DNA of 44,710 nucleotides from Burkholderiales bacterium (GTDB taxonomy: Bacteria > Pseudomonadota > Gammaproteobacteria > Burkholderiales > SG8-39): contig JACZJV010000118.1 of the NCBI GenBank assembly GCA_014860355.1, positions 1-44,710 of the forward strand, given 5' to 3'. A program made the translations under genes and the position numbers. The notes beneath the pieces were generated by a model. It had not been told where the DNA came from and ran no database searches. It was given only the letters and a program-made list of their open reading frames with translations. Below are positions 15,921-38,997 of the stretch, in pieces. The stretch's first letter is position 1. Every line of letters starts with the position of its first letter.

Positions 15921-15961
15921 TTGACCAATATCAAACGGTGCGCGCGCCCGGCGCGTAGCCT
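15921..15961 (+). promoter_or_regulatory. FNR/ANR-type promoter of the hox operon
   Basis: TTGACCAATATCAA (15921-15934) matches the FNR/ANR consensus TTGAT-N4-ATCAA at nine of ten positions. A TANNNT -10 element, TAGCCT (15956-15961), starts 35 bases after the start of the box, placing the box centre near -41.5 of a start at about 15969. This is class II activation geometry. It lies about 110 bases before hoxF and implies hydrogenase expression under low oxygen. Confidence 0.65.
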
Positions 15962-25601: not shown

Positions 25602-27242
25602 ATGAATAGTTCCTCCCATGCGCTGTTGTCCGTGTTGCAGCAGCACGGCATCGATCGGGTATTTCTGGTTCCGGGCGAGAGTTATCTGGGCATTCTGGAT
25701 GCGCTATGCGACTTCCCCGGCATCGACGCCGTGACCTGCCGCCACGAATCCGGCGCCGGGTTCATGGCCGTGGCCGACGCCAGGCTCTCGGGGCGGCCCG
25801 GGGTAGCGCTGGTGAGCCGGGGTCCCGGCGCAAGCAACGCGTCGATCGCCGTGCACACGGCGCAGCAGGATGCGATTCCCCTGATACTGGTCGTGGGGCA
25901 GGTGCCGCGCGCAGATCTGCGGCGCGAGGCGTTCCAGGAGATCGATTACCGGCGCATGTACGGCACGATCGCAAAATGGGTGTTCGAAGCGACCGACCCG
26001 GGCCAGCTCGCCGAGGCGGCGTTCAAGGCGGTTCGCATCGCCACCGCCGGCACGCCGGGGCCGGTGGTGCTGGTGATACCGGAGGATCTGCAGCAGCAGC
26101 AAGTGGCGCAGCCGCAATGGCGCGCGCAGGAACGCGCGCGCACGCAGCCTGACGCCGCTACCCGGCATGAGTTGCTGCGCCGCATCGAGGCGGCCGAGCG
26201 CCCGCTCATCGTCGCAGGGGGTGCATTCGAGGAGGCCGGCGGCAGGGAGGCGCTGTGCGCCCTGGCCGAGGCGTGGCAGATTCCGGTTGCACTGTCGTTC
26301 CGGCGCCACGATCTGTTCTCCAATCGTCACCCGCTTTATGCCGGCGAACTGGGGCTGGCAAATTCGAAGTTGCAGATCGATGCGTTCCGCCAGAGCGATC
26401 TCATACTCGCACTGGGAACCCGCTTCGGCGACATTCCCAGCCAGGGATACGCATTTCCCGATCTGCCATCCCCGGCACAGACCTTCGTGCATGCCTACGC
26501 CGACGCCCATATCGTCGGGCTGCACTACGCCCCGGATTTCGGCCTGGTGTGCGATCCGGTCGAACTCGCGCGCGCCCTGACCCCGGCGGACAAGGCGCTC
26601 ATTGCGCAGCCCCGCGCCGACTGGGCGAGGCGCCTGAGGGAGATACGCGTAGCACACGCAGCTTGGCCGCAGCGACAGGCGGCCGACGGCATAGATTTCG
26701 CGCAGGTGGTGCGGGCCGTGAGCGAGCAGGCGAGCGCAGATGCCATCGTCTGCGTGGACGCGGGAACCTTCGCCGCGCCGGTCTATCGCCATTTCGGTTT
26801 CGTGCCGCCGCAGCGGCTGATGTCGCCGCTATCGGGCACCATGGGCTACGGCACGCCCGCGGCGATCGCCGCGCAGCTGCGCTTTCCCCGCAGGCAGGTG
26901 ATCTGCATGGTGGGTGACGGCGGCTACATGATGACCGGCAACGAAATGATCGCGGCGGTGGAACGCAAGCTGCCGATTTTGTTCATCCTGGCCAACAATG
27001 GCAGTTACGCGTCGATCCGGATTCAGCAGGAACTGCATTACCCGGGGCGCGTGCTCGGTACCAGCCTGTTCAATCCGGATTTCGCGCAGATCGCGCGCGC
27101 TTTCGGCATGCGCGCACAATGCATAGCCGGCGAAGAAGAAATAGCGGGCGCGGTCGCGAGCGGCCTCGCCGCAGCCGAACCCTCCTTCCTCGAGGTCAAG
27201 GCCAGCCTGTCGGTCACCCTGCCCGAACGGCGCTCGGATTAG
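25602..27242 (+). CDS. ThDP-dependent enzyme, acetolactate synthase-like
   Basis: A 546-residue member of the thiamine diphosphate family with the standard three domains: N-terminal Pyr domain with the catalytic Glu in 'CRHESGAGFMA', a central domain, and a C-terminal PP domain with 'GDGGYMMTGNEMIAAVERK...LANN' (the GDG-to-NN cofactor motif). It likely decarboxylates a 2-oxoacid or a related C-C bond substrate. It is not clearly biosynthetic IlvB, since no small-subunit gene (ilvH) follows. It lies 58 bases after the exporter operon and is followed by a hairpin and a convergent gene. The exact substrate is unknown. Confidence 0.85.
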   Translation: MNSSSHALLSVLQQHGIDRVFLVPGESYLGILDALCDFPGIDAVTCRHESGAGFMAVADARLSGRPGVALVSRGPGASNASIAVHTAQQDAIPLILVVGQVPRADLRREAFQEIDYRRMYGTIAKWVFEATDPGQLAEAAFKAVRIATAGTPGPVVLVIPEDLQQQQVAQPQWRAQERARTQPDAATRHELLRRIEAAERPLIVAGGAFEEAGGREALCALAEAWQIPVALSFRRHDLFSNRHPLYAGELGLANSKLQIDAFRQSDLILALGTRFGDIPSQGYAFPDLPSPAQTFVHAYADAHIVGLHYAPDFGLVCDPVELARALTPADKALIAQPRADWARRLREIRVAHAAWPQRQAADGIDFAQVVRAVSEQASADAIVCVDAGTFAAPVYRHFGFVPPQRLMSPLSGTMGYGTPAAIAAQLRFPRRQVICMVGDGGYMMTGNEMIAAVERKLPILFILANNGSYASIRIQQELHYPGRVLGTSLFNPDFAQIARAFGMRAQCIAGEEEIAGAVASGLAAAEPSFLEVKASLSVTLPERRSD

Positions 27243-27326: not shown

Positions 27327-28571
27327 CTAGAAACGCAGGATCCCGCGCAACGCCTTCACGCCTTCCTGTACGGCTTCTGCAGGATCCGGGGTTTGCGGCT
27401 TGTCGGCTTGCGCGGGCGCCGTGTCCGCCTGCGGCGCAGGCGCTGCCGCGGGTTCCGCCGCAGCGGATCTGCCGCGGCGCCCGCCGCCGCCTTCGCCCTC
27501 GGCAAGCATGGTCATCGCAGTCGACTTGAGGCGCAGTTTCACCGCCCATTCCTGTTCCCAGACCTGCTTTGGATCCTTCGGGCGCGGCGGGTGCACCAGA
27601 TTCAACTCGTTGCCGTAAGCGATGAAATTGAACATCGACGCCTCGCTCTTGAACACGCCGGCGGGAACCGTGCACTCGGTGGTTTGCGGCGGCATCACCA
27701 CTTTCTCGTGAATCAGGCGCTCGAGCTCCGCCGGCGGGATATAGTCCATCAGGACCTGGCCCATCTCCTGCACTTCGCTCGAAGACCAGGTCACCAAATC
27801 GTTCTGGCTGTCCCCCTGGCCCATCGCGGTGGCGAAGTAGCCGAGCGCGCCGGGTATGCTCTTCCATTGGACGGCATAGGCGCCGCCCGGGGTCTTGCGC
27901 ACGGGGTCGAAGACTACGGGGTCCATGAAATCATGGCGATCGCCGACCGAGAAGCGGATGTCAGGCGAGTAATTTCCGCTGATCGCGTGCTCGCCCTGCA
28001 GCGACCCGGCCGCCGGTATCGCCTTCGAGTCTTCCTGGTTGGGCCAGTTGCCATAGCTGCGGCTGCGCCCTGGCGCCGGTCCGCGCGGCCGCGAAATCGC
28101 GCGGCTGCGGAACGCGCGCGCGGCATCCTGCGCGCTGAGGCTGGCGAAGTCGACAATCACCGGCTGGCCGGCGCGCACCGATACGCCGCAGCCCCAGTAG
28201 ATCAGCATCCTGCCCTTGGGTCGCTGGTACTCGGGTTCCTCTTCGCGCTCGCGCGCCGCTGCGCGTTCGGCCTGCGGCGTGACCAGAGGCAGGCTGGAGC
28301 CCATCGACAGCCCCGGCGGGATGGCGTGCGCTGCCCGCGGATCGCCTCCGGCTTGCCGCGTTGAACCGAGTTCCAGCCGCATGCGCTTTCCACCCTGCAT
28401 CCCGGGCGGCATCAGAGCGCCCATCCCCGGCGGTACGTCCATGCCCATGCCACCTGCGGTCTCCACGCTCATCCAGTAGCGCGCGATCGGCGGTTTTATC
28501 TGTTGCGTCTGCGCCTGCAGCGGCAGGGGGAGAGCCACGGTCAGGGCCGCAGCAAGGAGGCGGGTTTTCAT
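27327..28571 (-). CDS. exported protein of unknown function
   Basis: A 414-residue protein with a clear signal peptide (MKTRLLAAALTVALPLPLQAQ). The mature part begins with a Met/Gly/Pro-rich stretch ('GGMGMDVPPGMGALMPPGMQ'), contains a beta-rich central domain ('GRMLIYWGCGVSVRAGQPVI' and 'YAVQWKSIPGALGYFATAMG'), and ends in an Ala/Pro/Gln-rich low-complexity tail (about 350-400). It is probably periplasmic or surface-associated. The ATG at 28571 is chosen because it starts the signal peptide; the ribosome site is weak. I do not recognise the family. Methionine clusters can bind copper, but that is only a suggestion. Confidence 0.72.
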   Translation of the reverse strand: MKTRLLAAALTVALPLPLQAQTQQIKPPIARYWMSVETAGGMGMDVPPGMGALMPPGMQGGKRMRLELGSTRQAGGDPRAAHAIPPGLSMGSSLPLVTPQAERAAAREREEEPEYQRPKGRMLIYWGCGVSVRAGQPVIVDFASLSAQDAARAFRSRAISRPRGPAPGRSRSYGNWPNQEDSKAIPAAGSLQGEHAISGNYSPDIRFSVGDRHDFMDPVVFDPVRKTPGGAYAVQWKSIPGALGYFATAMGQGDSQNDLVTWSSSEVQEMGQVLMDYIPPAELERLIHEKVVMPPQTTECTVPAGVFKSEASMFNFIAYGNELNLVHPPRPKDPKQVWEQEWAVKLRLKSTAMTMLAEGEGGGGRRGRSAAAEPAAAPAPQADTAPAQADKPQTPDPAEAVQEGVKALRGILRF

Positions 28572-28765
28572 TGGGCACCATGTCATTGTCAGAGGGTTTC
28601 ATTATGCACCTGCTTGCCCCGCATGCGCGTGCGCAAGAGCGGGCACGGACGGGCCCGCAGCCGGACTCTCCTCCGGCAACCCCCGTTTGGCAGGCGTGCC
28701 ACCGACACTACGCGATCGACGGTCCAGTTTATCTTCGGCTGATGGCGCCGAAATCCGCACTGCAT

Positions 28766-28806
28766 TTGACCTTGATCAAATTGCCGGCACGTACGCCGCA
28801 TACCAT
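28766..28806 (+). promoter_or_regulatory. FNR/ANR-type promoter upstream of a candidate small RNA
   Basis: TTGACCTTGATCAA (28766-28779) matches TTGAT-N4-ATCAA at nine of ten positions. The -10-like TACCAT (28801-28806) starts 35 bases after the start of the box, predicting transcription from about 28813 with the box centred near -41.5. No gene start follows within 300 bases; instead a strong terminator lies about 80 bases on. Confidence 0.65.
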
Positions 28807-28812
28807 AGCTAC

Positions 28813-28896
28813 ACCCTTTTGCTGATTTCCTCCCATCCTTCTGGGCAGAAGGGATCTTGCGGACACTCGATATTCTGAATTCGAGTGTCCGTTTTT
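28813..28896 (+). ncRNA. candidate FNR-controlled small regulatory RNA (~84 nt)
   Basis: A predicted transcript running from the FNR-type promoter to a Rho-independent terminator, with no ATG open frame of any length. It starts with an unpaired pyrimidine-rich segment containing TTTCCTCCC (28826-28834), complementary to strong Shine-Dalgarno sites. An internal hairpin follows (CCTTCTG/CAGAAGG, 28837-28852), then the terminator hairpin. This layout resembles known bacterial sRNAs that block translation starts, and the oxygen-linked promoter recalls FnrS-type RNAs by arrangement only; no sequence similarity is claimed. The 5' end is predicted, not measured. Confidence 0.55.
28860..28896 (+). 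terminator. Rho-independent terminator
   Basis: A perfect 11-base-pair stem, CGGACACTCGA (28860-28870) with TCGAGTGTCCG (28881-28891), a ten-base loop, and TTTTT at 28892-28896. The T-run is on the plus strand. No plus-strand protein gene ends nearby: the closest upstream plus gene stops at 27242 and a minus-strand gene lies between. It therefore must end a non-coding transcript. Confidence 0.88.
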
Positions 28897-28943
28897 CTTT
28901 CCACGGCGGCATTCGGGCCGCCTGCGCGCGCCCCGACGGCAGC

Positions 28944-28985
28944 TTGATTTTCATCAACATTCGCGGCCCGACTCCGCGCTATGGT
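28944..28985 (+). promoter_or_regulatory. FNR/ANR-type promoter of the tandem universal stress protein gene
   Basis: TTGATTTTCATCAA (28944-28957) is a perfect TTGAT-N4-ATCAA box. The -10-like TATGGT (28980-28985) starts 36 bases after the start of the box, predicting a start near 28992 and a leader of about 146 bases before the ATG at 29138. Confidence 0.72.
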
Positions 28986-29137: not shown

Positions 29138-29968
29138 ATGGGCTACAAAACGATTCTTGTTCACATCGACTCGGGCAAGCGCTGTGCGGTGCGCGTCGAG
29201 GTGTCGATCCGGCTTGCGCAGCAACATGACGCGCATCTGGTCGCGCTGCACACGATCGCGCCTTTCGAACCGCCCGGGTACGTGATGGCGGAGATGGGAC
29301 CCGCGCTGGTCGAGGCGCAAAAGCGCGCGGCTGCGGTGGCGATGGCGCAGGCCGAGAGCGAATTCACCAAACAGACTGCAGCAGCGGGTTTCAGCAATAT
29401 CGAATGGCGCAGAGCCATTGACGATCCAGTCGAGGCGACGACACTGCACGCGCGCTACGCCGATCTGGTGGTGATCGGCCAGGCCGAATCAGCCGCCGGC
29501 TTGGGCATCGATTCGGATTTTCCCGCGCGCCTGGTACTAGCTGCCGGCCGGCCGGTGCTTATCCTGCCCAGCGTCGGCCGTTTCCCCACGATCGGAAAAC
29601 GCATACTCGTCTCGTGGAATGCGAGCCGCGAGGCGACGCGCGCGCTCACCGACGCGATCCCGATGTTGCGGCTCGCCGAGTCCGTACATGTCATGGCGGT
29701 GAACCCGAAGCACGGTATGCACGGCAACGTGCCCGGCGCCGATATAGGCCTGTATCTCGCGCGCCACGGCGTGCGCGTGGAGGTAAAAACGGATCAGGGC
29801 GCCGAGATCGACGTGGGCAACGAACTGCTGTCGCGCGCGGCTGACCTGGACGCCGACCTCATCGTCATGGGAGGCTACGGCCATTCGCGGCTGCAGGAAT
29901 GGGTATTGGGCGGCGCGACGCGCACTATCCTGGAATCGATGACGGCGCCGATTCTGATGTCCCATTAG
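29138..29968 (+). CDS. tandem-domain universal stress protein
   Basis: A 276-residue cytosolic protein made of two UspA-type domains (about 1-140 and 150-276). The first begins 'GYKTILVHIDSGKRC' and appears to have lost the nucleotide loop. The second begins 'GKRILVSWNASREATRAL' and keeps the ATP-binding pattern G-x2-G-x9-G in 'GGYGHSRLQEWVLGGATRTI'. The ATG at 29138 has AAGGA seven bases upstream. A perfect FNR-type box precedes it, consistent with anaerobic induction known for some Usp genes. Pyruvate phosphate dikinase follows after 219 bases. Confidence 0.88.
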   Translation: MGYKTILVHIDSGKRCAVRVEVSIRLAQQHDAHLVALHTIAPFEPPGYVMAEMGPALVEAQKRAAAVAMAQAESEFTKQTAAAGFSNIEWRRAIDDPVEATTLHARYADLVVIGQAESAAGLGIDSDFPARLVLAAGRPVLILPSVGRFPTIGKRILVSWNASREATRALTDAIPMLRLAESVHVMAVNPKHGMHGNVPGADIGLYLARHGVRVEVKTDQGAEIDVGNELLSRAADLDADLIVMGGYGHSRLQEWVLGGATRTILESMTAPILMSH

Positions 29969-33744: not shown

Positions 33745-33786
33745 TTGACGTAAATCAAAAGAGCCTCGCAGGCTTATGGGTAAATG
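33745..33786 (+). promoter_or_regulatory. FNR/ANR-type box upstream of the cytochrome c gene
   Basis: TTGACGTAAATCAA (33745-33758) matches TTGAT-N4-ATCAA at nine of ten positions. The -10 region is less clear than at the other sites: TAAATG at 33781-33786 starts 36 bases after the start of the box. The predicted start near 33793 precedes the ATG at 33852 and rules out longer starts for that gene. Confidence 0.55.
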
Positions 33787-38429: not shown

Positions 38430-38873
38430 CTAGCGGCAAACCAGCACCGGGATCTTGCTGTGGACCAGCACCTTGTGCGTCTCGCTGCCCAGCACCAGTG
38501 CGGACAGCCCGCGCCGGCCGTGCGAGGCCATGACGATCAGATCGCATTTCTTCTTCTTTGCTGCGTCGACGATGGCTGCAGACGGACTGTCGTTGATGGT
38601 ATGGAAAACTTCGCAGGGTACCTTTTCCACCTCGGCCTCGACCTCAATCACGGACAGGTACCTGCGCGCCTGCTTCTGTACGAATTCAGCCTGCGCCTTG
38701 GCCCCGGGTGCGCGCAGGATATAGCCGTCGCCGTAGTAGGTCGAGCTGAAGTCTGGGGCAGCATGAAAGCCCGTGATTCTGGCGCCCAGCGACTTGGCCA
38801 GCTTGACCGCCTGTTTGGCTGCCTTGGCCGAAAGCCTGGAGCCGTCGGTCGGGACGAGGATGTGCTTGAACAT
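38430..38873 (-). CDS. single-domain universal stress protein
   Basis: A 147-residue UspA-family protein. It starts 'FKHILVPTDGSRLSAKAAKQ' and holds the ATP-binding loop 'ASHGRRGLSALVLGSETHKV', so it belongs to the nucleotide-binding class. The ATG at 38873 has GAAAGGAG upstream at good spacing. An FNR-type promoter lies about 110 bases upstream on the same strand. It converges with the crotonase gene, separated by 72 bases without an obvious terminator. Confidence 0.92.
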   Translation of the reverse strand: MFKHILVPTDGSRLSAKAAKQAVKLAKSLGARITGFHAAPDFSSTYYGDGYILRAPGAKAQAEFVQKQARRYLSVIEVEAEVEKVPCEVFHTINDSPSAAIVDAAKKKKCDLIVMASHGRRGLSALVLGSETHKVLVHSKIPVLVCR

Positions 38874-38956: not shown

Positions 38957-38997
38957 AGCTTAGGTCCCCGGGGCGGCCGCGGTTTGATCAAAATCAA
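38957..38997 (-). promoter_or_regulatory. FNR/ANR-type promoter of the single-domain universal stress protein gene
   Basis: Read on the minus strand, TTGATTTTGATCAA (38997-38984) is a perfect TTGAT-N4-ATCAA box. The -10-like TAAGCT (38962-38957) begins 35 bases after the start of the box. The predicted start is about 38950, giving a leader of roughly 77 bases before the ATG at 38873. Confidence 0.72.

Follow-up and report, generated by a model that had tools for sequence, protein, structure and literature searches.

A candidate FNR-controlled small RNA with a loop-borne anti-Shine-Dalgarno seed in an uncultured betaproteobacterial genus

Our analysis indicates that the plus strand at 28766-28899 is likely to hold a free-standing gene for an oxygen-controlled, trans-acting small RNA (sRNA) that pairs with Shine-Dalgarno regions. 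The window, by which we mean the whole stretch of 44,710 nucleotides that was analysed, lies on contig C168 of the 5.09-Mb genome G000, and the gene itself, about 85 nt in length, occupies 28812..28897 on its plus strand. An FNR/ANR-controlled sRNA had been proposed for this place in the initial annotation, and the proposal is supported by a conserved box, a conserved spacing, a conserved transcript and terminator, and a second copy that keeps a box of its own. It is confirmed that the arrangement is much more than chance. Although an FNR-driven or anti-Shine-Dalgarno sRNA is of a known kind, the family appears to be new: it is well defined, unclassified in Rfam, and comes from an uncultured betaproteobacterial genus, and it joins an FNR-type promoter to an anti-Shine-Dalgarno seed borne in a loop. 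As such it provides a concrete way to probe oxygen-dependent riboregulation in bacteria of groundwater and lakes.

The right neighbour, which is not part of the RNA, is usp, a universal stress protein gene on the plus strand (29138..29968; Pfam PF00582, 2e-17), and a pyruvate phosphate dikinase gene lies on the same side. The left neighbour is a minus-strand gene (27327-28586), whose 419-aa protein has no Pfam or NCBIfam match; this gene or a relative adjoins the sRNA in 9 of the 11 genomes that carry it, and is missing there in G013 and G004.

Promoter, fold and terminator

The promoter comprises an FNR/ANR-type box, TTGACCTTGATCAA, at 28766..28779 (plus strand, one mismatch to TTGAT-N4-ATCAA), and a -10 element recognised by its sequence, TACCAT, at 28801..28806 (plus strand); both elements are present where they had first been placed, and their spacing is fixed across the copies. 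Thirteen of the 16 columns 28765-28780 are invariant among 11 genomes, and the sRNA boxes depart from the consensus at one of ten positions in 11 of the 12 copies and at two in the remaining one. Eleven of the 12 copies have the box centre 41 nt ahead of the transcript's first stem base, and the twelfth has it 40 nt ahead; -41.5 is the class II position, at which an FNR dimer activates together with RNA polymerase. Within the -10 element A28805 and T28806 are invariant (11 of 11), and each of the 12 copies has a hexamer with one or two mismatches from TATAAT at most two bases from the -10 place. A simple promoter scan found no -35 hexamer, as expected for class II activation. The simple scan for promoters and terminators reported neither the promoter nor the terminator of the sRNA, because it demands a -35 hexamer and a terminator loop of 3-8 nt, and the loop in question has 10. 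From the position of the -10 element and the -41.5 spacing of the box, the start of the RNA is placed at about 28812-28814; its end lies in the T run.

The stretch 28813-28897 folds with -35.3 kcal/mol (z = -5.27), an energy equally low in none of 200 shuffles. Its first element is the 5' hairpin (28814..28853, plus strand), with a stem of 10 bp (28814-28823/28844-28853) and a loop of 20 nt (28824-28843); taken alone, its energy is reached by 9 of 2000 mononucleotide shuffles. All cells of this stem (100%) are paired in the 12 sequences, one pair being U-G in nine and U-A in three of them, and the free consensus fold of RNAalifold gives the same 10-bp stem. The loop carries the pyrimidine sequence GAUUUCCUCCCAUCCUUCUG, which contains the anti-Shine-Dalgarno seed UUUCCUCCC (28826..28834, plus strand). 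This seed is invariant except that one copy has A instead of C at 28834, and its predicted mean unpaired probability is 0.92 in 11 of the 12 copies and 0.86 in the twelfth. In two respects the fold differs from what had been described: the seed had been assigned to an unpaired 5' region, but is predicted to sit in the 20-nt loop of the 10-bp hairpin, and the internal hairpin, presumably 28837-28842/28847-28852, lacks the pair between alignment columns 30 and 37 in three of the 12 copies.

The perfect 11-bp Rho-independent terminator, on the other hand, is confirmed; it spans 28860..28899 (plus strand), with arms at 28860-28870/28881-28891, a variable 10-nt loop and a T-rich tail, its T run starting at 28892. 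Its stem is paired in 98.5% of cells, and the pair 28863-28888 occurs as A-U, G-U or G-C. Compensatory changes in the stems, which had been suggested as a check, are thus present in this one pair, but they do not amount to covariation above that of shuffles: one of 21 pairs is changed on both sides, which shuffles match in 365 of 500 cases, and they match the covariation score in 122 of 500. The covariation is thin because the sRNA sequence hardly varies, and the structure is supported instead by full pairing, low energy and the drift of the terminator loop.

Distribution and conservation

The sRNA unit was found with blastn in 11 of the 14 genomes of the window's genus, in 12 copies, the second copy of genome G009 included. 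The gene has a mean column identity of 94% across the 12 copies, and the conservation of box, stems and seed that the initial annotation expected among relatives was observed in these near-identical sequences. The carriers on record are MAGs of uncultured Burkholderiales, Betaproteobacteria or Proteobacteria, and the isolate names of several point to groundwater or lakes. As to the three genomes in which the sRNA was not found, usp starts 14 nt from the apparent contig end in G001 (locus L085, 2342 bases), and no usp match was obtained at E 1e-40 in G008 and G010, which are 77% and 84% complete. No genome of the genus was seen in which the usp place is present and the sRNA absent.

Conservation drops at the edges of the box and of the transcript. 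Among the 11 genomes, identity is 57% in the upstream spacer, 95% in the box, 63% in the spacer between box and -10 element and 77% in the -10 element; it is 99% in the 5' hairpin (39 of 42 columns invariant), 92% in the linker, 93% and 98% in the terminator arms, 75% in the terminator loop and 95% in the T tract. Downstream, the next spacer has 63%, a second box 96%, the following stretch 77%, the 130-nt leader of usp 52% and the first 80 nt of the usp gene 85%. The non-coding sRNA stretch therefore varies less than the adjoining coding sequence.

The search of the family covered 98 genomes, 14 of them from the window's genus, and found a homologue at E 0.01 or better in none of the 84 genomes of other genera. 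The covariance model R1 matched G000, G009 and the foreign genome G315 among 399 genomes drawn from the order, and G000 alone among 398 drawn from the phylum, both searches having been run with stricter filters that lose weak matches. The match in G315 (30.6 bits) was rejected, because its likeness to the model is limited to a terminator and a short hairpin, both downstream of a transporter gene that we take to be amtB. At that place (L045 1300-1800, minus strand) a hairpin whose loop reads CCUCCCC and a strong terminator come after the 3' end of the transporter gene, and they may belong to an anti-Shine-Dalgarno RNA derived from the 3' UTR.

Within the family the seed pattern GCTGATTTCCTCCNATC, with one mismatch, occurs at 25 places, of which 12 are the sRNA itself. 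The other 13, ten in nine genomes of other genera and three in G004, G005 and G008, were rejected as sRNAs because the nearest FNR-like site within 110 nt upstream has at least three mismatches; 12 of them cross a long reading frame. When genome contigs were scanned for the exact pattern, 11 contigs from 10 MAGs matched, all already among the known carriers. Rfam 15 gave no match in the window at gathering score, and with E values up to 10 the locus matched only four eukaryotic families, two of snoRNAs, one of a miRNA and one of a lncRNA, none of which reached gathering. That the sequence had not been recognised as a known family agrees with this search, which found no bacterial family, and open-licence literature on FNR and sRNAs in Rhodocyclales or betaproteobacteria, on Accumulibacter RNAs and on UUUCCUCC yielded nothing recognised on the sRNA.

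Proposed mode of action, targets and known counterparts

We propose that at low oxygen an FNR-type regulator would bind the box 41 nt upstream and activate the -10 element at 28801-28806, and that an RNA of about 85 nt would be made that ends at its own terminator. In this RNA GAUUUCCUCCCAUCCUUCUG would be kept open in the loop of the 10-bp hairpin and, probably while Hfq occupies the U-rich tail, could pair with GGGAGGAAAUC-like Shine-Dalgarno regions, which would block ribosome binding on messages unwanted without oxygen. Anoxic induction, transcription, Hfq binding, pairing and targets are what we infer from the sequence. The genome G000 possesses an Hfq gene (PF17209, 103.7 bits, G000:C160), and the anatomy of the predicted transcript, which is short and intergenic and has a Rho-independent terminator and a U tail, fits an Hfq-dependent sRNA. 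Among the 12 proteins read of the 14 matches to the Crp/FNR family in G000, two are of FNR type with C-X2-C-X5-C and ETVSR, and a third has the cluster with ATVSR, motifs that we take to be marks of FNR-type regulators.

FnrS of E. coli is reportedly an sRNA tied to anaerobic metabolism and FNR; the FNR link is alike, whereas the window is without any Rfam match at gathering score. The Neisseria sRNAs AniS and FnrS are betaproteobacterial and made under oxygen limitation, AniS being FNR-controlled and Hfq-dependent (PMC4176332, PMC5362039). They resemble the window's candidate sRNA in being betaproteobacterial, and AniS also in its FNR link. NmsRA and NmsRB of N. meningitidis possess UC-rich anti-Shine-Dalgarno stretches, of which one separates stem-loops and the other lies in a loop, and repress TCA-cycle messages (PMC5362039). 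They share the betaproteobacterial origin and the anti-Shine-Dalgarno stretch with the window's sRNA, but are two siblings for which three stem-loops are predicted and -35 and -10 boxes are marked, and in the sections available FNR control is not described (PMC5362039). In alphar14 (NfeR1 of Sinorhizobium) an ultraconserved anti-Shine-Dalgarno motif stands in unpaired parts of hairpins; it has three hairpins with CCUCCUCCC, highly differing stems, and control by LsrB and NtrC, all in Alphaproteobacteria (PMC10746234). The window's sRNA, in contrast, has a single such loop and a stem as invariant as the loop.

The closest match found in the literature is the core of the alphaproteobacterial family alphaR8, which comprises MmgR of Sinorhizobium and SisA-D of Caulobacter and has the core UUUCCUCCCU; SisA represses messages via this core upstream of the start codon, with compensatory mutations for one target (PMC12559287). 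The RNA of the window agrees with this core in 9 of 10 bases (UUUCCUCCCA), and both have a Rho-independent terminator. The core itself is not matched in full: UUUCCUCCCA, in which the tenth base differs, is present in 11 of the 12 copies and UUUCCUCCAA in one. Moreover, the alphaR8 core is described there as single-stranded and downstream of a weak hairpin, whereas that of the window is predicted to lie in the loop of the first, 10-bp hairpin, and alphaR8 is reported from Alphaproteobacteria, SisA-D without a shared promoter motif, whereas the sRNA of the window is betaproteobacterial and has a fixed FNR-type promoter. Since the tenth core base differs and the core has another place in the fold, we do not file the sRNA as alphaR8. 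With regard to descent from that family, R1 matched, under its strict filters, only the window's genome among the 398 of the phylum. The sRNA may be a UUUCCUCCC regulator that evolved independently or has diverged very far. SisA, NmsRA/NmsRB and NfeR1 are anti-Shine-Dalgarno precedents, and by analogy the RNA of the window probably works alike.

Among the 14 genomes of the genus, no orthologous target was found to carry the complement throughout. The pattern GGGAGGAA-N2-9-ATG occurs at 14 places in the genome of the window, compared to 3 for a reversed control pattern, as expected of real ribosome sites. Two of the 14 have a 12-base complement, GGGAGGAAATCA, ending at the ATG. The frame that begins at the first has 49 codons and presumably resembles the N-terminal part of a MetX-like hydrolase, while that at the second presumably resembles an internal part of an HlyD-type protein. 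A third site in G000, GGGAGGAAAATAATG, stands upstream of what we take to be a ccmF-like gene. Across the 14 genomes 101 places with GGAGGAAAT-N0-9-ATG were listed and 98 read, 68 of them with an open frame of at least 40 residues, and the largest orthologous groups among the sites read span five genomes and then four. The group of five presumably represents internal rpoN sites, the groups of four groES and mixed solute-binding proteins. Several single target matches also resemble solute-binding proteins, but since these are numerous in such bacteria we attach no weight to them.

Complements to the 14-mer with at most one mismatch occur at 25 places, of which 12 are the sRNA gene and 9 of the other 13 cross a long frame on either strand. 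At about 1500 of locus L140 a 13-base perfect complement to the loop (in CATGGGAGGAAATC) lies inside a reading frame, which we assume to encode an NrfD-type membrane subunit. The neighbour usp was considered as a target and rejected, its pairing being weak and uneven (-8.0 to -14.9 kcal/mol) and without a constant site. Complementarity alone proves little, because CCUCC matches any strong Shine-Dalgarno site.

Two other modes of action deserve attention. On the one hand, the FNR-driven RNA might bind protein or act as a sponge, with the pyrimidine loop as a landing site for a protein or another sRNA. All 42 nt of the hairpin, in the stem as well as the loop, are kept more strictly than a pairing seed alone would need, and the lack of a conserved mRNA target in the 14 genomes points in the same direction; the loop, however, complements a Shine-Dalgarno site exactly and is the longest element left unpaired, and the GGA motifs that CsrA would need sit in or beside stems, which leaves this explanation improbable. 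On the other hand, and with a chance a shade smaller still, the RNA may be a broad brake under anoxia, in which the loop competes for strong Shine-Dalgarno sites across the transcriptome and not for a few chosen targets. The invariant 20-nt pyrimidine loop is, in our assumption, similar to the 3' tail of 16S rRNA. If the brake were real, there would be no conserved target list, and the whole hairpin would be under near-absolute constraint.

A gene of its own or part of a neighbour

In each of the 11 genomes that carry the sRNA, usp follows it in the same orientation, and the sRNA could accordingly be regarded as the 5' leader of usp: transcripts from the FNR promoter would run toward usp, with the hairpin and terminator as an attenuator. 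Against this arrangement speaks a second FNR-type box, TTGATTTTCATCAA (28944..28957, plus strand), which would serve usp, apart from the sRNA promoter, and lies after the terminator and ahead of usp in all 11 copies that adjoin usp, perfect in eight and with one mismatch in three; in the copy without usp, the best site has three mismatches. Furthermore, in the consensus fold, which covers 86 nt, the terminator forms completely and no helix competes with it, and the 130-nt usp leader is only 52% identical.

The copy without usp is the second one of G009 (L015, L052 about 2015-2093). It is preceded at 40 nt by an FNR-like box of its own, TTGACCCATATCAA, lies downstream of an MFS transporter gene and is not followed by usp. 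The two contigs of G009 have similar coverage (6.1 and 5.6), which argues that both belong to this genome; G009 would then have two sibling sRNAs, the second copy being known from one MAG. Given the own box of the second copy and the separate box of usp, a leader or attenuator of usp is unlikely, and the sRNA is most likely a free-standing gene. In sister genera, an FNR-type box with at most one mismatch precedes usp by 62-106 nt in 10 of 18 loci, and the simple scan found no terminator there, although several of the 18 are shortened by contig ends and their positions may be off. The sRNA thus looks like an addition within the genus beside an older FNR-linked gene.

The second neighbour to be considered is the closest plus-strand gene upstream, which encodes a TPP enzyme and ends in the window at 27242, about 1.6 kb from the sRNA, with the minus-strand gene between them. 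The initial annotation had stated that no plus-strand gene upstream could use the terminator, which is true of the window and eight relatives, but not of G013 and G004. There the minus-strand gene is missing, the TPP-enzyme gene ends 164 and 342 nt, respectively, before the seed hairpin, and the terminator could also serve it. The hairpins might therefore be the 3' end of the TPP-enzyme transcript, that is, its terminator and a processed 3'-UTR RNA. Against this explanation, which we hold to be very improbable, the minus-strand gene intervenes in 9 of 11 genomes, and an FNR-type box and a -10 element precede the RNA in 12 of 12 copies with a spacing of 41 nt (40 in one), including G013 and G004, in which both still lie between the TPP-enzyme gene and the sRNA.

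It had also been stated that no open reading frame lies between promoter and terminator. Mechanical frames do cross the region, among them a TTG-started frame (28687-28878), which runs through the 5' hairpin, and a minus-strand frame (28589-28960), but the flanks that these frames need are poorly conserved. A short peptide gene or other coding feature is hardly credible, given that the RNA of the window lacks ATG and has its only GTG in the 3' arm of the terminator, that the TTG frame would encode different residues where columns 23, 45 and 48 vary, and that one copy has a 7-nt deletion; the usp-linked copy of G009 has an ATG in the terminator loop. A conserved mobile or selfish element, or an assembly artefact common to MAGs, as might be suspected from the two places in G009, is similarly improbable, since one copy adjoins usp in 11 of 11 genomes of distinct MAGs and neither plasmids (blastn) nor viral contigs (exact pattern) gave a match to the sRNA.

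The wider surroundings hold further FNR-type boxes: five are seen in the window, at 15921-15934, 28766-28779, 28944-28957, 33745-33758 and 38984-38997. Sites with at most one mismatch are expected 0.50 times, and five were reached in none of 100 shuffles; judged by these sites, the window looks rich in anaerobic control. The last of the five boxes is perfect and lies about 110 nt upstream of a second universal stress protein gene (38430-38873, minus strand; Pfam Usp).
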